Below the pieces are notes generated by a model. It saw only the letters and a list, made by a program, of their open reading frames with translations. It made no database searches and was not told where the DNA came from. A stretch of 52,276 nt of DNA, taken from Gemmatimonadota bacterium (lineage in GTDB: Bacteria > Gemmatimonadota > Gemmatimonadetes > Palauibacterales > Palauibacteraceae). A program made the position numbers and the translations under genes. Shown piece after piece: positions 4,859 to 52,119 of this stretch. The stretch lies in assembly GCA_022825725.1 (NCBI GenBank), contig JAJDWE010000024.1, positions 1 to 52,276 of the forward strand, written 5' to 3'. The first letter of the stretch is position 1. The number at the start of each line of letters is the position of its first letter.

Positions 4859-4904
4859 TTGGGTTCCGGGAACCGCTCAATCCGAACGGGAGGCGGAGGA
4901 CGGG

Positions 4905-7256
4905 GTGAATTTCGAGGTTTTCGTCGTCGGGGGGATTCTCGCGGTCGCGGTCGTCCTGTTCGTCACCGAGCGGATCCGGGTGGATCTGGTCGCGTTGATG
5001 GTGATGCTGGGACTCGTGGTGACCGGCATCCTCGAGGGCGAGCAGGCGGTCATGGGCTTCGCCAACGAGGCGGTCATCACCATTGCCTCGGTCCTGGTTC
5101 TGAGCGGAGCGCTCACGCGGACCGGGGTGGCTCATTTCATTGGCCAGCGCGTTCTGGCTGCATCGGGCGATGGCGTCGGCCGCCTCGTCGCGGTGATGAT
5201 GGCCACGGTGGGCCTCCTGTCGGGAATCATGAACGACATCGGGATCACGGCCCTCATGCTGCCGGTCGTGCTGGATATGGCCCGCCGCACGGGGACGCCG
5301 CCGTCCAAGCTGCTCATGCCCCTGGCCTTCGGATCCCTGCTCGGCGGGATGACGACCCTGATCGGAACCGCGCCGAACATCCTCGTGAACGGGGCGCTGC
5401 AGGACGCCGGGTTCGAGCCGTTCGGGATGTTCTCGTTCACGCCCGTCGGGCTGACCGCGCTCGCGGTCGGAATCGTCTACATGACTTTCCTGGGCCGGCG
5501 GCTGTTTCCGGACCGGGATCCGAAGAAGGAATCGACTCCCGCGGATCTGGGGGGACTCTACGACCTGCGTGGCCTGATCGGCATGCTGAGAGCCCCGGAC
5601 AATTCGACCCTGGCAGGCAAGACGCTTCAGCAAAGCCGGTTGGGCCAGGCCCTGGGCCTCAACGTGGTCGCCGTGCAACGGAGCGGGGAGATGATCCTCG
5701 CTCCCGGGACCGACTTCGTTCTGAGCGGGGGAGATGAGCTGGTTGTCGAAGGCACCCTCGAGCGGTTCGAAGCCCTGCGCGCATGGAAGCACCTGGAGAT
5801 CGAGTCGAGGGATCGAACGCTGGAGCGGATCGCCGATGCCTCGATCGAGGTGGCGGAACTGGAGTTGGCGGAAGATTCCCCGCTGATGGGGCAGACCGTT
5901 CGCGAGGCGAATCTGCGACGGACCCGAGGCCTGCACGTGCTCGCGATTCTGCGGGGCGATCGGGCTCATCGCACGGGATTGCGGCTGATGACGCTCGCTC
6001 CGGGGGACCGCCTGCTGGTTGCGACGAAGAGCGGGCGCCTCGCCGCACTGGGGCAGACCATTGGAGCCGTCCATTCCGTGCCGGCGGGAGAACTGCTTCC
6101 CCGCTACCGGCTGGAGCGCCGGATTCAGAGCGTCAGAATCTCGGAAGAATCACTGCTCGCCGGCCAGCTGCTCGCGGAAACCCGGTTGGCCGACGCATTC
6201 GGCTTGACGGTGGTGGGGATCCTGCGGGCCGATGAAGAGCTGCTCATGCCGGATCCGGACACGAAACTCGAGGGTGGGGACGTCCTCCTGCTCCGGGGAC
6301 GGTTCGAGGATCTCGAGATTCTGGGGGGGCTCCAGGGATTGACGGTGGGAGACAACCGTCCCCTGGACTTCAGCCGGTTGGAGTCCGACACCGTCGGCCT
6401 GGCGGAGGCTTCGCTTTCTCCGCGCACGACGTTCGCGGGAAAGACGATCGAGGAACTCAAGTTCCGCAAGAACTACGGGGTTTCCATCCTTGCGATATGG
6501 CGGAATGGAAAGATCTACCGGAGCGGGCTCCCGCGAATGGAACTGCTCCCGGGCGATGCATTCCTGCTCTACGGCGACAGGAACAAGCTCGCGCTCCTCG
6601 TGGAACACCCGGACTTCCTCGTCATGACCGAAGGGGCGGCGGAGGTGGTGCGAAGCGGGAAGGCTCCGGTCAGCGCCGTCATCATGGCGGGCGTCCTGGC
6701 TTCGGTGGTCTCGGGCCTGCTGCCGATCTTCATCGCGGCGCCGATCGGAGCGGTCGCGATGGTGCTGACGGGGTGTCTCAACATCGAAGAGGCCTATCGG
6801 TGCATCGAGTTGAAGGCGGTGGTCCTGATCGCGGGGATGCTGAGCCTGGGACTGGCGATGCAGGAATCCGGAACGGCCGCGCTGGTGGCCGAGGCGGTGT
6901 TGGGATCTCTCGCGGACTTCGGTCCTCTGGCGGTGGTGGCGGGACTCTTCCTGATCACCGCGCTGTCCGCTCAGATGATGCCGACGGCGGCGGTGGCGGT
7001 CCTCATGTCGCCGATTGCACTCAGCACGGCCACGAGTGAGGGACTCTCGCCCCAGGCGCTGATGATGACGGTGGCGGTGGCGAGTTCCTGCGCCTTCATG
7101 AGTCCGGTGGGACACCCGGTGAATCTGCTGGTGATGGGTTTCGGCGGATACCGATTCGTCGATTTCATCAAGGCGGGATTCCCGCTCCTGGTCCTGGTCA
7201 TGGCCGTGGTCCTGACCGTCCTCCCCCTCGTATGGCCGCTCGTGCCCGCGGGCTGA
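4905..7256 (+). CDS. SLC13/DASS-type transporter with central TrkA-C domains
   Basis: A 783-residue inner-membrane permease with a GTG start preceded by GGAGGCGGAGGA. Residues ~1-200 are hydrophobic helices with the SNDIG-like motif GIMNDIGITALMLPVV and a later TLIGTAPN, both typical of divalent anion:Na+ symporters (sulfate, dicarboxylates). The middle (~210-580) holds several TrkA-C/RCK-C modules such as LEIESRDRTLERI and DRLLVATKSGRL, and the last ~200 residues form the second membrane half (MPTAAVAVLMSPIAL). This split architecture is known for the SLC13-TrkA-C subfamily. The RCK-C modules presumably sense a ligand. It stands alone; sulfate or a dicarboxylate is the best guess for substrate. 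Confidence 0.9.
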   Translation: MNFEVFVVGGILAVAVVLFVTERIRVDLVALMVMLGLVVTGILEGEQAVMGFANEAVITIASVLVLSGALTRTGVAHFIGQRVLAASGDGVGRLVAVMMATVGLLSGIMNDIGITALMLPVVLDMARRTGTPPSKLLMPLAFGSLLGGMTTLIGTAPNILVNGALQDAGFEPFGMFSFTPVGLTALAVGIVYMTFLGRRLFPDRDPKKESTPADLGGLYDLRGLIGMLRAPDNSTLAGKTLQQSRLGQALGLNVVAVQRSGEMILAPGTDFVLSGGDELVVEGTLERFEALRAWKHLEIESRDRTLERIADASIEVAELELAEDSPLMGQTVREANLRRTRGLHVLAILRGDRAHRTGLRLMTLAPGDRLLVATKSGRLAALGQTIGAVHSVPAGELLPRYRLERRIQSVRISEESLLAGQLLAETRLADAFGLTVVGILRADEELLMPDPDTKLEGGDVLLLRGRFEDLEILGGLQGLTVGDNRPLDFSRLESDTVGLAEASLSPRTTFAGKTIEELKFRKNYGVSILAIWRNGKIYRSGLPRMELLPGDAFLLYGDRNKLALLVEHPDFLVMTEGAAEVVRSGKAPVSAVIMAGVLASVVSGLLPIFIAAPIGAVAMVLTGCLNIEEAYRCIELKAVVLIAGMLSLGLAMQESGTAALVAEAVLGSLADFGPLAVVAGLFLITALSAQMMPTAAVAVLMSPIALSTATSEGLSPQALMMTVAVASSCAFMSPVGHPVNLLVMGFGGYRFVDFIKAGFPLLVLVMAVVLTVLPLVWPLVPAG

Positions 7257-45459: not shown

Positions 45460-45699
45460 TCAGCCGAGGTGTCGCGTACGCCCTTCCAGCGCCAGCTGGT
45501 AGTCGATACGCCGGCGCAGGTGCGTGTCGAAGCACCACTCGCACGTGGCGCGCCAGCGACCTCGGCCGGGGATGCGGTCGTCTTCCGGAATCTCGGCGCC
45601 GTGGGGGCAATCCGGCTCGTGGTGATGCACGGGACTGAGCCGCGCGTGCCATGGCGGCATGCCGATGGTGGGCCTTTTGGAACTCGTCACCGCGTTCAC
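45460..45699 (-). CDS. small putative zinc-finger protein
   Basis: A 79-residue ORF from GTG 45699, overlapping the stop of the 44-aa ORF. It has potential zinc ligands: HHHEPDCPHGAE followed by CEWCFDTHLRRR. Spacing suggests a two-part zinc finger or a fragment of an HNH-like protein. ATG 45660 is an alternative start. No family recognised. With its neighbour it may be a remnant of phage or plasmid DNA. Confidence 0.5.
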   Translation of the reverse strand: MNAVTSSKRPTIGMPPWHARLSPVHHHEPDCPHGAEIPEDDRIPGRGRWRATCEWCFDTHLRRRIDYQLALEGRTRHLG

Positions 45700-45830
45700 G
45701 GCAGCCTCACCTCCGGCCGCCGCGCATCCAGGTTGGCGATCTGCGACTGAAGATCGGCCATGTCGTGGCGAACGTGGATCAGGGATTCGCGGGCCGCCAC
45801 GATGAGGATGTCGGCAGTGCGTTCGTCCAT
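45696..45830 (-). CDS. 44-aa ORF, unrecognised
   Basis: ATG 45830 opens a helical, amphipathic 44-residue ORF (DILIVAARESLIHVRHDMAD). Its stop shares GTGA with the next start. A further ORF in another frame (45779-45919, TTG start, KLEHDAIRAELADRVADERV) overlaps it by 52 bases. Such packed small ORFs suggest mobile DNA. Coding status is uncertain. Confidence 0.35.
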   Translation of the reverse strand: MDERTADILIVAARESLIHVRHDMADLQSQIANLDARRPEVRLP

Positions 45831-45973
45831 CGGTCAACCCTCTCATCTGCAACCCGGTCGGCGAGTTCCGCCCGGATCGCATCGTGTTCCAGCTTATGGA
45901 AACGTGCGGAGGGCGGCAAAAGGTACCAACGTCGCCCCCAGGGTAGCGGCCGGGATCAACGGAGCATCAAGAG

Positions 45974-48256
45974 CTACGGGCGAGACCGGCCCGGCGCTCT
46001 CAACTGGTCGGCCGAAGGAAGACCTCGGGAGACGAGCACCTCGAGGTCGGCCGCGTCCGGGAAGAGGGACGCGACGGAGGCCGGATCCGCCGCGGCTCCG
46101 GCGAGCGTGCCGAGGCCGTCATGGCCACCGTCGAGGGTCGCAAGGTCGCGCACGATCCCGCGTACCCGGCCCGTCCGGGGGTCGCGGAGGATCGCGGCCG
46201 GCGGACCGCTCGCACCGCTCAGCGTCGCCATCCCTCCGGGCGCGGAGAGCACGACTGTCGCCAGCCTGTCCCTCCACGCCGGCGACACGGGCAACGCGAA
46301 GGCGAATCCCGACTCTCCGTCGCTGTCCCCGTCCGCGATCTCCTGCATGTCGAAGTTCAGCGAGAACAGCGTCTCGCCGTCGGCGGCCGTTCCGGTCAGC
46401 GTGTACGGCCCCCCGGACCGGGGAAGCTCCGGCGGAGCGTCGACGACGAAGGCCGGCTCCAGGAACGGCACGCCGTCGGCGTCGGCGCCGCCCCACAGCA
46501 GGAGGGTCCGCGCGGCATTGGCCCGCGCGCCGGCAGTTTCACCTTCCTCGCGGAGGCGGTGGTCGAGCGCCTTGGTGAAGCTGAAATCGCTGATCCAGCG
46601 CGGCCGGCAATAGGACATCAGGTCGGGGAAACGCGGATCGACCAGTGAACTGTCGGCGCCGTTGAAGCCCCACGCACCGATGGTTCCGCCGCTGTTCGGG
46701 TAGGCGGGATCCGGACCGCCGGCGCCCCCGCAGGGGGCATGCCGGAGGCTCATGTTGTGTCCGAGTTCGTGCGCCACCGTCGAGGAGTCGAGACGCGAGA
46801 TGCTGATCCGGCCGCCGATGTATCCCCGACCCCAAGTGTTCAACTCGTCCGTGAGATAGGGGGGGAGCCCGCCCATGTAGTAGCCGGTTCCGCCCTCGAG
46901 CACGCGAATCGCGCCGATCTCCGTCATCAACGCGGTGCTCGTCTGTGCCGTGGTGTAGATGGCCTCGCGCACGTCCACGGTGAACTCGGCGATGGGCAGC
47001 CACTGTCGCGACGGCTCGAACATGGTGTCGTCCTCCGTCAGATCCCGGACGCGACTCAGAAAGTCGTCGGACGGCTCCGCGGGGCGGACGACGGGCAGAT
47101 ACGTCAGGTGCAGCGGAGGCAGCGTTCGCGCGTCGATGGCCTTGCGGCCGGTCTCGGGGATCCGCCTCGCGATGCCGTGGCCGAGGCCGAGCGTCTCGTC
47201 CGGGTCGACTTCGACCACGAGTTCCAGGCCGGGTTGAACGATGGCGGCCGGGACTGCGGCGTTCGCCGACGTGTCGAGTCTGCCCTCCTCCACCCGGTGC
47301 GGGACCGTGCCTGCCGGGACCGCGATGTCGACGGTGTGCACCTCTTCGTCCCCCAGGTAAAATCGGGCGCGCACGGGCGGAAAGGCGACCGATTCCCCGG
47401 CTGGAGCCGTGAGGAACACGCGCAGCAGGGCCGGCCGGTCCGCCACCAGTGGAACCGGGAACCGGAACGATTGCACGGCCTGCGTGAGGTAGGCGGGGGA
47501 CACCTCGTTCTCGCAGAGAGCCACGCGCCGGCTCTGCAGCGCACCGAGCCAGGCCAGGAATTCGGGATCGGCGGGGGCGCACAGGCCCGTGCCGCCGGCA
47601 TGAAACGTGGTGAGGAGCCCGAGATCCTTCAGGCCCGCCGGGAGGACCCCCGACAGGTACGGGTTCGCGTTCAGGTACAGTTCCGTCAGCGCGACGAGAC
47701 CGGACAGTTCCGCCGGCACCGGGCCGGACAGCGCATTCCGCGAGAGAATGAGCTCGTTGAGCGACGTCAGTCTCCCCAGACCGGCAGGGATCGGGCCGGT
47801 CAGTTCGTTGTTCTCCAGCCTCAGTTCCCTGAGCGCCGGGAGGTCCCCGAGAGCCGACGGAATCGAATCCGAGAGGCCGTTGCCCCAGAGTCCCAGGATC
47901 CGGATTTCCGGGAGCCGGCCGATCTCTGCCGGGATCGGACCGGTCAGGTGGTTACGGTTGGCGTAGAATTCATGCAGCCTGGAGAGGTCGCCGATCTCCG
48001 GCGGGATGGAGCCCGCCAGATCGTTGTGGCCCAGGTACAGGATGCGAAGCTCGGAGAGTTGGCCGAGTTCGGGCGGAACTAGATCACATTCGTCCAGTGC
48101 GTTCCACGGACATCCACCAGTAGTCTTACAAGACGCTATGGGACAGTAGCTTACGGAGATAGCGCCAACGCACCGTGTCCCTTGAAGTCCAGCGGATTCC
48201 GGTGTATTCTTCCTTATGTAGTGATTTCTTATGTGATACACAACGGGAAGGAACAC
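45974..48256 (-). CDS. LRR-metzincin protease, 5' end lost to element insertion
   Basis: From about 48085 downward the frame encodes plant-type leucine-rich repeats (LGQLSELRILYLGHNDLAGS onward, about six), a linker, and a zinc protease with HELGHNMSLRHAPC (HExxHxxxxxH, metzincin), plus a beta-rich C-terminus. Upstream of VPPELGQL the sequence (Cys-rich, ending MFLPVVYHIRNHY at the start) is unlike LRR capping regions and overlaps the integrase promoter. No signal peptide remains. I infer that an integrative element replaced the signal and N-cap. A shortened protein may still be made but would probably not be exported. Confidence 0.8.
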   Translation of the reverse strand: MFLPVVYHIRNHYIRKNTPESAGLQGTRCVGAISVSYCPIASCKTTGGCPWNALDECDLVPPELGQLSELRILYLGHNDLAGSIPPEIGDLSRLHEFYANRNHLTGPIPAEIGRLPEIRILGLWGNGLSDSIPSALGDLPALRELRLENNELTGPIPAGLGRLTSLNELILSRNALSGPVPAELSGLVALTELYLNANPYLSGVLPAGLKDLGLLTTFHAGGTGLCAPADPEFLAWLGALQSRRVALCENEVSPAYLTQAVQSFRFPVPLVADRPALLRVFLTAPAGESVAFPPVRARFYLGDEEVHTVDIAVPAGTVPHRVEEGRLDTSANAAVPAAIVQPGLELVVEVDPDETLGLGHGIARRIPETGRKAIDARTLPPLHLTYLPVVRPAEPSDDFLSRVRDLTEDDTMFEPSRQWLPIAEFTVDVREAIYTTAQTSTALMTEIGAIRVLEGGTGYYMGGLPPYLTDELNTWGRGYIGGRISISRLDSSTVAHELGHNMSLRHAPCGGAGGPDPAYPNSGGTIGAWGFNGADSSLVDPRFPDLMSYCRPRWISDFSFTKALDHRLREEGETAGARANAARTLLLWGGADADGVPFLEPAFVVDAPPELPRSGGPYTLTGTAADGETLFSLNFDMQEIADGDSDGESGFAFALPVSPAWRDRLATVVLSAPGGMATLSGASGPPAAILRDPRTGRVRGIVRDLATLDGGHDGLGTLAGAAADPASVASLFPDAADLEVLVSRGLPSADQLRAPGRSRP

Positions 48257-48258
48257 CC

Positions 48259-49428
48259 ATGACGAAACGACCTAGGACACTCTCCGCCGCGTTCGTGCGG
48301 ACGGTGGGCCGAACCGGCGTGTACGGCGATGGTCGGGGCGGGCGGGGGTTGAGCCTCCGGGTGTACCGGACGGTCGACGGCCGGATCACCAAGACGTGGC
48401 GGCAGCGCGTCAGGATCGGCGGGCGGCTGACCTCGATCGGCCTCGGGCCGTATCCCGAGGTCACGCTCGCCGAGGCTCGCCGGAAGGCGCTGGACAACAG
48501 CCGCATGGTCCGCCAAGGCCGGGACCCGCGCGGGCGCGGCGTGCCGACGTTCGCCAAGGCCGCCCAGCGGACCATCGAGCTTCACCGCGACTCATGGAAG
48601 GAGGGAAGCCCTCTCCCCCAGCAGTGGGAATCGACGTTCCGGCGTCACGCCGCACCGCTCCTGGACAAGCCCGTGGACCGGATCACGAGCGCGGACGTGC
48701 TCAGGTGCCTCTCGCCGATCTGGAGCACCATGCCCACAGCCGCCCGGAAGGCCAAGCACCGGATCGCCGCCGTCTTCCGCTGGTCCATTGGGAAGAACTA
48801 CCGCCGGGACAATCCGGTCGACCGTGCGGTCGCGGCGCTGCCGAAACAGAACGGCAGCCCCGGGGGCCACCACCGCGCGTTGCCGCACGGCGATGTCGGG
48901 GCGGCACTCGCGGCGATCCGCCGGGTGGGAAAGGGGAGCCCGCCGGCGTTGTGCGTCGAACTGATTGCGCTGACGGCGGTTCGTCCCGGCGAGGCGCGCG
49001 GCGCCCGCTGGGACGAGATCGACGTGGACGCGGCCAGGTGGACGATTCCGGCGTCGAGGATGAAGGCGGGCCGCGAGTTCGCCGTCCCGCTCAGCACGGG
49101 CGCGCTGGACGTGCTGGAAAGGGCGCGCAAGCTGTCGGCCGGGTCGCCGCTGGTGTTCCTGTCGCAAACCGGAAGGGTGCTCGCGCCGAAGACGGTGTCG
49201 AGCGTGCTCCGGCTCGCCGGTGTGGACTCGACGCTGCACGGATTCCGGTCGAGCGCGCGGTCGTGGATGGCTGAGTCCGGTGTTCCCGCCGAGGTCGCGG
49301 AGGCCTGCCTCGCCCATGTCCCGAAGAGCAAGATCGTTCAGGCGTATCAGCGATCCGACCTGCTGGAGAAGCGCGCCGAGGTCGTGCAGGCGTGGAGTGA
49401 TTACCTCACATCGCGCGATACGCCGTAG
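48259..49428 (+). CDS. P4-type tyrosine integrase
   Basis: A 389-residue site-specific recombinase. N-terminal VGRTGVYGDGRGGRGLSLRV and GLGPYPEVTLAEARRKALDN form the arm-binding region of P4-like integrases. Catalytic residues: Arg in LTAVRPGEARGARWDEID, H-x-x-R in HGFRSSARSW, His in CLAHVPKSK and Tyr in VQAYQRS. ATG 48259 follows GGGAAGGAA; the frame is open back to 48175. It would insert and excise the element at its left end. Confidence 0.93.
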   Translation: MTKRPRTLSAAFVRTVGRTGVYGDGRGGRGLSLRVYRTVDGRITKTWRQRVRIGGRLTSIGLGPYPEVTLAEARRKALDNSRMVRQGRDPRGRGVPTFAKAAQRTIELHRDSWKEGSPLPQQWESTFRRHAAPLLDKPVDRITSADVLRCLSPIWSTMPTAARKAKHRIAAVFRWSIGKNYRRDNPVDRAVAALPKQNGSPGGHHRALPHGDVGAALAAIRRVGKGSPPALCVELIALTAVRPGEARGARWDEIDVDAARWTIPASRMKAGREFAVPLSTGALDVLERARKLSAGSPLVFLSQTGRVLAPKTVSSVLRLAGVDSTLHGFRSSARSWMAESGVPAEVAEACLAHVPKSKIVQAYQRSDLLEKRAEVVQAWSDYLTSRDTP

Positions 49429-49537
49429 GTTGTCGCAACGTTCCGGGGCGGACAGCTTTGTTGGAGGGAGCCCCGAAGAATCGATCGCCAGAGCCAGCCA
49501 GACGCATCTCGACGAACGGCGTGGCGGCCAGAACCCG

Positions 49538-50056
49538 ATGGAATTGACCATGACAACGCGACAGCATCCGCTCCACCACCTGAGGCACGGTCAGGCCTTA
49601 GCCCTCCAGTACGCGGCTCAAATCCTGATCAACTCACAGCGTGACCCTCGCCGTGCGTTGTCAGGTGCGCAGTTGGCCGCCACGAACGCCGTCAATACGA
49701 CGGCTCTCGGTTGCCAGTACGCCGCCCGCATCCTGTTGCCGTTTGTCGTGGAGCTCGCTCTGAAGGCGCTGATCGGCAAGCACAACAACGACCAAGGTTC
49801 GTGGGGGCACCACCTGTCCAAGTTGTACGACGAGCTACCCGCGAACGTGCAGGCCGAGTTGGAGCGCGATTTCGCACACATCAAGCGGACAGAGATGCCC
49901 GCTGAAACGAGGTTGGCGCGGGACATTCTGGCAGATCACCACCACGACTTTCCGGACTGGCGCTATCTCGATGATCCGAACAAGCTGGTGAGCGGCCCGG
50001 TCGATACTCTGCAGTACGTCGCGTGCTCGATCCTCAACGTCTACAACTCAACGTGA
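49538..50056 (+). CDS. HEPN-like protein (element cargo)
   Basis: A 172-residue helical protein. Central block ILLPFVVELALKALIGKH then GHHLSKLYDELPANVQAELE resembles the ELxLKALL...GHDLxxLFxxL pattern of HEPN-type proteins seen in integrative elements. The N-terminus adds a helix with HLRHGQALALQYAAQI. No clear R-x4-6-H RNase motif is seen, so nuclease activity is uncertain. It follows the integrase and is convergent with the repressor. Possible defence or abortive-infection cargo. Confidence 0.65.
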   Translation: MELTMTTRQHPLHHLRHGQALALQYAAQILINSQRDPRRALSGAQLAATNAVNTTALGCQYAARILLPFVVELALKALIGKHNNDQGSWGHHLSKLYDELPANVQAELERDFAHIKRTEMPAETRLARDILADHHHDFPDWRYLDDPNKLVSGPVDTLQYVACSILNVYNST

Positions 50057-50109: not shown

Positions 50110-50823
50110 CTACAGCCGCCGTGAGACCCAGACGGCGCGGCCGACGACGCGGACCTCCTCGGCGGGACGTTCGTAGCTGTCGTACTCGGGGTTGAGTGAC
50201 TTGAGCACCACCCTGGGCGGGTCGGAGTGGGGTACGTGCTCGATCCGCTTGGCGACGAGTCCCATGCCGTCCCAGATCACGAAGACGCCGGGCGGCACCG
50301 GCACTTGGCGGCTCACGTCGATCAGGATGCGGTCGCCGCTCGATAGCAGCGGCTCCATCGAGTCGCCGTCGACCGCGATCATTTGCAAGTCCTCGGGCTT
50401 GGCCCGGAACTCGTGGCGGATCAGGGGATCGGCGAACAGCCACATGTCCCTCGTCCGCTCGAACTCGTCGTTCCAAGCTCCCGGACCCGCCGACGCGCGG
50501 ATATCGATCTCGGGCACGGCGCTGTAGCCCCTCGGGGCGGCGTGCGGTGCGACCACGGGCGGTTTCCGGCGCGCTTTGCGGCTGAAGCCCCGGTCGTGCT
50601 TGAGCAGGTCGGGGCTGCACCCCAGATGCTCCGCCAGCGCCTCCCGGTCGTCCTCGCCCAGCACGCGGGGCGTGCCCCGATGGACGAACTGGTGCAGGTA
50701 GGCAGGGTTGCGCTCCATGGCGCGCGAGGCCGTGCGCAGGTTCGTGCGGCTGTCGGCCACCAGCCTGAGCAGCCTCCGGCGCACCGGGTCCAGTTGATCG
50801 GTGTCTTTCCTTCTTCGTCCCAT
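50110..50823 (-). CDS. S24-family repressor (LexA/CI-like)
   Basis: A 237-residue protein. The first ~70 residues form a helix-turn-helix (ASRAMERNPAYLHQFVHRG); the C-terminal half is an S24 peptidase with the catalytic dyad Ser155 in DGDSMEPLL and Lys192 in LVAKRIEH. Such repressors cleave themselves after DNA damage and release the element's genes. Start ATG 50823 is divergent from the small regulator-alpA pair, and the 193-base region between them should hold the operators. The C-terminal DEFERTRDMW segment is the usual linker. Confidence 0.9.
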   Translation of the reverse strand: MGRRRKDTDQLDPVRRRLLRLVADSRTNLRTASRAMERNPAYLHQFVHRGTPRVLGEDDREALAEHLGCSPDLLKHDRGFSRKARRKPPVVAPHAAPRGYSAVPEIDIRASAGPGAWNDEFERTRDMWLFADPLIRHEFRAKPEDLQMIAVDGDSMEPLLSSGDRILIDVSRQVPVPPGVFVIWDGMGLVAKRIEHVPHSDPPRVVLKSLNPEYDSYERPAEEVRVVGRAVWVSRRL

Positions 50824-50826
50824 GAG

Positions 50827-50970
50827 TGGGAAAATACCTACTTCATGCGGCCAGAGCAACCGGGTTCCCGATACGGCGTAGGCGGTTTTTGGCCCGGCTG
50901 GCGATGATCTCCAGAAATCCGGTTCCGTATCCCGTTGTCTCTCAAACGACGTGGGAAATAGCCGATTTCC
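50827..50970. promoter_or_regulatory. probable repressor operator region
   Basis: Between the divergent repressor and regulator genes, GTGGGAAAATACCTACT (50826-50842) resembles GTGGGAAATAGCCGATTTCC (50951-50970), the latter containing the palindrome GGAAAT-N5-ATTTCC. ATACGG (50871-50876) is also repeated in inverted form, CCGTAT, near 50926. These AT-rich palindromes are the likely binding sites of the S24 repressor. Confidence 0.4.
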
Positions 50971-51016
50971 TACTCCCTTGCGGCGCTTGCCACCACTGTG
51001 TTTGGGTGGATGGGCA

Positions 51017-51265
51017 ATGGAGAGCCTGACGAAGCACTTCGAGCGCCGCGTGGCCGCGTTCCTTCAGCGCGTACGGATGTCCCCGTCGGAGTTCGGGGAG
51101 CGCGCGGTCGGGGACCGGAACTTCCTGGGCGACGTGCGCCGGGGCCGTTCGCCGAGGCTGGCGACCGCGGACCGGGTTCTGGCGTTCATGGAGGCTTTCG
51201 GCCGGAGTCGCGAATCGGACGGTTCCCGGGATTCATCAATCAGCGAAGGAGGTAGGAAAGGATGA
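51017..51265 (+). CDS. small element-encoded regulator, XRE-like
   Basis: An 82-residue basic protein: HFERRVAAFLQRVRMSPSEF then GERAVGDRNFLGDVRRGRSP and ATADRVLAFMEAFG. This looks like a Cro/XRE-like helix-turn-helix variant. Its stop overlaps the AlpA gene start (ATGA), so both are cotranslated. It probably counteracts the S24 repressor or controls excision. No firm family assignment. Confidence 0.65.
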   Translation: MESLTKHFERRVAAFLQRVRMSPSEFGERAVGDRNFLGDVRRGRSPRLATADRVLAFMEAFGRSRESDGSRDSSISEGGRKG

Positions 51266-51861: not shown

Positions 51862-52119
51862 ATGGCTGAGCATCGCACCGTGATGGTCGCCGCGCGCGTC
51901 ACGCCCGCCGAGCACGCTGCTTGGCGGAAAAAGGCGGCCGCGGCGGGCGTCTCCCCCTCGGCGCTGCTTCGCGAGGCGATGGCGCGGACGCGGACCTGGA
52001 CCGCTCCGGCCCAGGCCATCGAGCGCGAGCGCACCCGCCAGATCGCTCGCATCGGCAACAACCTGAACCAACTCGCGCGCTGGGCGAGCATGCGCATTCC
52101 CGTGTGGATCTGTTTGTGA
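51862..52119 (+). CDS. mobC: MobC-like relaxosome protein, probably frameshifted
   Basis: An 85-residue protein with N-terminal RHH (VMVAARVTPAEHAAWRKKA) and the MobC hallmark RIGNNLNQLARWA. Normal MobC continues ~30-40 residues after ARWAN. Here frame 1 ends ARWASMRIPVWICL and stops, whereas the +2 shifted frame continues HSRVDLFVIVELTELPARIP to a stop at 52163, which fits MobC much better. A single-base indel near 52085-52092 is likely. MobC helps the relaxase nick oriT; no relaxase is visible before the window end. Confidence 0.75.
   Translation: MAEHRTVMVAARVTPAEHAAWRKKAAAAGVSPSALLREAMARTRTWTAPAQAIERERTRQIARIGNNLNQLARWASMRIPVWICL

Follow-up and report, generated by a model that had tools for sequence, protein, structure and literature searches.

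The window analysed here (52,276 bp) is a whole contig, C84, of a 3.49 Mb draft genome in 84 contigs (97.7% complete); all the data are draft metagenome bins. It carries the 3′ part of an LRR gene directly beside a tyrosine integrase gene, and the 5′ part lies on a second contig of the same genome, C38. We consider it highly probable that an LRR lipoprotein-type gene was split site-specifically by an integrative, probably mobilizable element with a P4-type integrase. Close relatives of this integrase are found mostly at the same LRR codons, so that a repeated protein motif, rather than a tRNA gene, seems to be their usual landing site. The initial annotation had described a gene decapitated by an integrative element, an observation confirmed and an interpretation supported here; it did not recognise LRR codons as the usual target of close relatives of the integrase.

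The two parts of the gene and its intact orthologues

The LRR-bearing frame reported at 45974-48256 on the minus strand was confirmed as an open frame with Pfam LRR_1, LRR_8 and LRR_4 matches. It has four long homologues in its own genome, at 45-50% identity. The 3′ part proper (45974..48076, minus strand; alignment and Pfam) comprises LRRs, a putative metallopeptidase and a C-terminal region, and has neither a start codon nor a signal peptide of its own. LRR homology does stop at VPPELGQL, as stated earlier, and beyond it the frame enters the region before the integrase; the boundary, however, is a 10-bp repeat at 48067-48076, a few bases to the left of the position near 48085 first given. 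The predicted direct repeat was likewise found, at these same coordinates rather than within 48085-48170. A search of the window for tRNA and tmRNA genes found none, and the inserted-into sequence is a protein gene, as had been claimed.

The metzincin zinc motif is HExxHxxGxxH. The translation of the split gene contains HELGHNMSLRH, in which the glycine is absent, and its product gave Reprolysin_3 (E 0.0012) and Peptidase_M66 (E 0.0014) matches, both below Pfam cut-offs, and three PDB matches at E 1.2 or worse. These similarities suggest the label “metzincin” only weakly. NCBIfam type III effector and internalin matches to the LRR region fell far below their cut-offs and were set aside as general LRR similarity. 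A small ORF at 45460-45882 (minus strand), without a Pfam match, can be aligned beside DUF1592 in two other genomes (G005 and G008).

We reached C38 by searching the genome for the core sequence of the junction. It encodes an LRR gene on the minus strand that starts at 5726 and is cut after TGSIPPE at 4886-4895; this is the 5′ LRR fragment that had been predicted to lie beyond the right end of the element (C38:4886-5726). By eye, the fragment has a lipoprotein-like start and about five LRRs, and it includes a Big_2 (Ig-like) domain. It ends in the 10-bp repeat seen in the window, and the sequence beyond this repeat is a right end from the window element's family. Left of the cut are a Vsr-type endonuclease, a transposase zinc ribbon, a C-5 methylase match and an HNH protein.

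Junction alignment places the repeat, GTTCGGGCGG (gene strand CCGCCCGAAC, in the codons P-P-E), at 48067..48076 of the window and at C38:4886-4895. On the gene strand, C38 reads ..GGTTCGATC CCGCCCGAAC CAATCATTG, the intact gene of G008 reads ..GGTTCGATC CCGCCCGAAC TCGGCCAACT, and the window reads GATCTAGTT CCGCCCGAAC TCGGCCAACT. The attL core in the window, AGTTC-GGGCG-GAACT (48066..48080), consists of short inverted arms around a 5-bp centre, and this centre, GGGCG, agrees between C84 and C38.

Two sister species each have one unbroken gene, in one frame without stops (G008:C73 and G005:C47). The C38 part is 93-94% identical to these genes over residues 1-280 and the window part is 89% identical from its residue 1, and the two parts abut on the orthologue with a 12-base overlap. 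One side of the intact gene is flanked by GSDH and an amidohydrolase, as is the C38 part (Pfam), and the other by DUF1592, DUF1552 (Pfam) and an ankyrin protein (by eye), as in the window. The gene could instead be a natural short variant that starts inside the frame and was never decapitated, given that the frame is open up to a GTG at 48256. We give this reading hardly any credence: the N-terminus of the orthologues matches the C38 part, and the extension past the core up to this GTG is element DNA that is not conserved. At junctions of the same orientation, the corresponding frame hits a stop within 1-27 codons in 22 of 31 cases and stays open in nine, the window's among these. The idea that the element supplies a conserved “new head” to the cut gene was rejected on the same count.

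The locus was surveyed in nine species: the window's own and, out of sixteen other genomes, the eight whose GSDH neighbour is most similar. Three of the nine have a cut gene (the window's own genome, G007:C2 and G002:C5). In the latter two, element-like sequence resembling the right end follows the codons PPE; G002:C5 rests on little sequence, because its contig stops about 40 bases later. In five species (G005, G008, G009, G010 and G012), the gene is covered by one uninterrupted frame of 933-1055 residues, with a more diverged 5′ part, matching that of C38 only in part, in the last three. In G001 (L254, G001:C19), no LRR match was found between GSDH and DUF1592, which are only about 1.4 kb apart. 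Two tandem LRR-metallopeptidase-like frames occur in G008 (L249:7052-12876, G008:C73) and G010 (L252:2399-8225, G010:C44), and the locus therefore varies by duplication too.

C84 and C38, unjoined in the assembly, we infer to be opposite ends of a single element. Of the six integrase matches in the genome, C84 has the only left end of orientation A (the gene's 3′ part beside the integrase), which is the type that the flank of C38 needs, and the core centres of the two contigs agree. Alternatively, each contig carries the end of a different element: one of these would have split the gene, and recombination between elements would later have rearranged it. This is unlikely, though the middle of the element is absent from the assembly, other integrase fragments exist in the genome (on C27, C36, C4 and C52), and the right end on C38 is similar to those of L129 and L096, other integrases being closer than theirs to that of the window. 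We found no contig in the genome that continues C84, the last 177 bases of which match other contigs only at 70-82%. The end of L058 is matched at 100% by C38:1-138, in the wrong direction for linking the two, and this was taken as a shared repeat.

Genes and ends of the element

The left end of the element (48077..48258) contains, by eye, spaced TCCA-type repeats, which are probably integrase arm sites, and the integrase upstream region, and can be aligned in close relatives. The integrase (48259..49428, plus strand) has P4-type architecture, with Arm-DNA-bind_3, Phage_int_M and Phage_integrase domains each above Pfam cut-offs. Its motifs VRPGE (241), HGFR (327), LAH (351) and AYQR (362) we take to be the catalytic R, HxxR, H and Y of tyrosine integrases. 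It is followed by an ORF without a Pfam match (49538..50056, plus strand; tested as 49220-50056), for which we chose the later start because the longer form overlaps the integrase. Next come an S24-peptidase-type repressor (50110..50859, minus strand; PF00717, E 9.6e-13), a small ORF without a Pfam match (50951..51265, plus strand) and a NikA-like/MobC mobilization protein (51862..52119, plus strand; Pfam). The contig ends at 52276, inside the element and shortly after this gene, which encodes the only mobilization protein of the window. The element is probably mobilizable.

Eight relatives have both ends and a repeated core, and are 5.8-7.8 kb long. Three of them (L257, L120 and L080) have the orientation of the window (A), in which the gene reads away from the integrase, and five (L071, L078, L093, L096 and L129) have the opposite one (B), in which it reads into the integrase. 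Their cores are GTTC-N5-GAAC or close variants, and a single base distinguishes the centres of the two cores in L120 and L080. The sequence TGCATA-N5-AGTG(A/G)TAC occurs in nine of nine aligned right ends (the eight complete elements and C38). Relaxases were detected in L129, L257 and the incomplete L251, and methyltransferase matches in these three and C38; the two complete relatives that were annotated (L129 and L257) thus carry both. No excised or circular form of an element was encountered.

In the reading that we prefer, recombination within the P-P-E codons of one LRR (chromosomal GATCCCGCCCGAACTCGG) would leave CCGCCCGAAC at both ends of the element. In orientation A, as in the window, the 3′ part of the gene would stay beside the integrase, with the 5′ part beyond the right end, here on C38. 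In orientation B, the 5′ part would run into the integrase end and stop 6 or 13 codons on. The window integrase presumably performed the insertion, and the split gene has presumably lost its function. As the arms are inverted repeats, only the core centre sets direction, and the GTTC-N5-GAAC arms may let a site be entered either way. The centre CGCCG, for example, is found both in B junctions (CCG CCG GAA) and in the A junctions L121 and L109 (gene CCG GCG GAA). Of the 32 B junctions, 26 have the stop of the reading frame 6 codons past the motif and five have it 13 codons past, with one unplaced; these positions may merely reflect conserved integrase sites.

LRR fragments between two outward-facing integrases were found at seven distinct places and in G007:C42 (L258), eight in all, with the facing pairs L068/L172 and L083/L176 counted once as the same places. 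Such fragments could be cargo by which elements graft new repeats onto host LRR genes, which we regard as highly unlikely: none of the eight complete elements has an LRR between its two cores by a motif test, and the two parts of the gene split in the window are collinear with a host orthologue. The simple reading of the facing pairs is that of separate insertions into one LRR gene.

Insertion sites of related integrases

Palauibacter and a second family of the class have integrases 72-94% identical to that of the window, as do bins labelled Gammaproteobacteria, Acidobacteria and Binatia, which may represent misbinned contigs. Among the matches listed (80 of 277 in one search and part of those in two others), we identified 111 distinct upstream junctions, each with 330 or more upstream bases, an integrase match beginning at residue 12 or earlier, and a distinct 120-base key. 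Loci L132-L162 were left out of the count, and the C27 junction was outside the limits. Flanks translated in six frames were searched with a profile of 57 repeat units, taken from loci L001-L020 (the window gene included), L249 and L250; a simple motif search had missed junctions. Viral contigs, with no close integrase relative (best identity 40%), and phage records, with no DNA match, were left out of the counts.

For integrases at least 78.5% identical to that of the window, 62 of 72 junctions among the matches listed abut LRR coding sequence by the profile, 30 in orientation A and 32 in orientation B. At four more (L167, L081, L110 and L178), the core translated by eye reads (I/L)P(P/S)EL. 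The proportion was one of seven at 60-78.5% identity among the matches listed, and none of 32 below 60%, from the same searches and thus the same genus, class and bins. Nine of the 72 junctions and three of these 32 controls come from integrase matches of fewer than 200 residues. No two of the 63 LRR junctions share a 75-bp flank. All 31 A junctions and 31 of the 32 B junctions have a P(P/A/S)E(L/M)-type motif in frame at the distance expected from the integrase; in 62 of the 63, the cut falls at a single codon position, at the codons of (I/V)P(P/A)EL. The codons of (I/V)P(P/A)EL in LRR genes are very probably the usual attB of the close relatives. An automatic core table placed 49 of the 63 junctions and missed 14 B junctions; because its pattern required TC-N5-GA, its base composition is weaker evidence of preference. 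In the window's own genome, a degenerate attB pattern (at most one mismatch) gave eight matches, compared with two for a reversed control, and seven of the eight fall within the genome's LRR matches.

LRR genes might be hit without any preference, simply as abundant and dispensable targets, and they are indeed numerous, with matches at 40 places in the window's genome. This would account neither for the absence of LRR junctions among the 32 less related integrases nor for the single codon position of the cut, and we consider it very improbable. The same low probability applies to an assembly or binning chimera at the window junction. The genome is a draft of 84 contigs and contigs often break inside these elements, but 61 other close relatives are joined at the same codons, a matching second end is present in the same genome, and the eight complete elements elsewhere have both ends on one contig.

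A tree of 74 integrases, built with a quick method, groups the 55 LRR-targeting rows, without exception, in a single clade of 65 rows (SH-aLRT 100). The ten other rows of the clade, including a subclade of six, are at other sites. The fewest orientation changes on this tree is nine, with many inner branches weak. Six of the 72 junctions are non-LRR by both tests (L131, L070, L087, L090, L052 and L095) and, given these and the six-member subclade, LRR targeting is not universal. L095 lies in a non-LRR gene (named by eye) other than that of L087 and L090, and L070, L052 and L131 lack the LRR core, the latter two coming from short integrase matches.

Several of these other sites have features of their own. 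L087 and L090 lie in a beta-barrel-like gene (by eye), at codons EFYRNF (GTTCCGGTAGAAC and a variant), with the same core geometry. The integrase of L070 is 84% identical to that of the window, and its upstream region is unrelated and without a core. The six-member subclade (L029, L038, L097, L100, L104 and L182; 72-77% identity) has a non-LRR target, and most of its members have a sequence like GCAGATCGTGCAGTCC beside the core.

Implications and comparison with known integrases

Integrases usually keep to single, highly conserved sites. By targeting the codons of a repeated motif that a large gene family shares, the clade described here has numerous potential sites in each genome, and most of its insertions split an LRR gene. 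How a recombinase tracks a protein motif through its DNA could be tested in this system, which may also be a source of LRR-protein variation in uncultured symbionts. For annotators, truncated LRR genes in these bins may be split rather than short. A larger role, in which the elements shuffle LRR blocks and so drive the variation of surface LRR proteins in sponge and coral symbionts, is conceivable but rather doubtful. Were it true, one LRR gene would offer several near-equivalent sites about 72 bp apart; insertion, excision at another repeat and recombination between elements would delete, invert or swap LRR blocks; and the eight LRR fragments between outward-facing integrases would represent intermediate stages.

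P4-type integrases with an Arm-DNA-bind_3 (DUF4102) N-terminus have the same domain order as the window integrase. They commonly insert at tRNA genes, which is usual and not obligatory; the window integrase differs in its LRR codons and in the lack of a tRNA in the window. Integrative and mobilizable elements (IMEs) resemble the window element in site-specific integration with direct repeats and in combining an integrase with a mobilization protein, as the annotated relatives combine an integrase with a relaxase; the 5.8-7.8 kb length of eight relatives is likewise in keeping with IMEs. This family differs in its LRR-codon target and in the methyltransferase, HNH or Vsr-type cargo of the members examined. 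Tn916 and CTnDOT have low-specificity conjugative transposon integrases. They share an apparent tolerance of differences in the core centre, but the present family keeps to a single codon position within a single protein motif.

No LRR-targeted integrase is described in the sections available to us of the literature searched (PMC4482086, PMC4755523, PMC10469786, PMC8813620, PMC8546597), subscription journals and preprints being outside the search. The initial annotation had called a protein-gene target unusual for a P4-type integrase, which fits the tRNA preference; yet other integrases that target a protein gene, dusA, have been published (Farrugia et al., 2015; PMC4482086). These dusA-associated integrases are the nearest published parallel that we found, in strategy and not in family: the parts of that paper available to us give Rci as their closest relative, and the target of the window element is not dusA. 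As described there, dusA islands are likewise entered by tyrosine recombinases into a conserved stretch within a gene and combine diverse cargo with a shared integrase (PMC4482086). They target one housekeeping gene, to which the island supplies a new 5′ end (PMC4482086), whereas the family described here enters a repeated motif of a multigene family in either orientation and splits the gene without a conserved new 5′ end.
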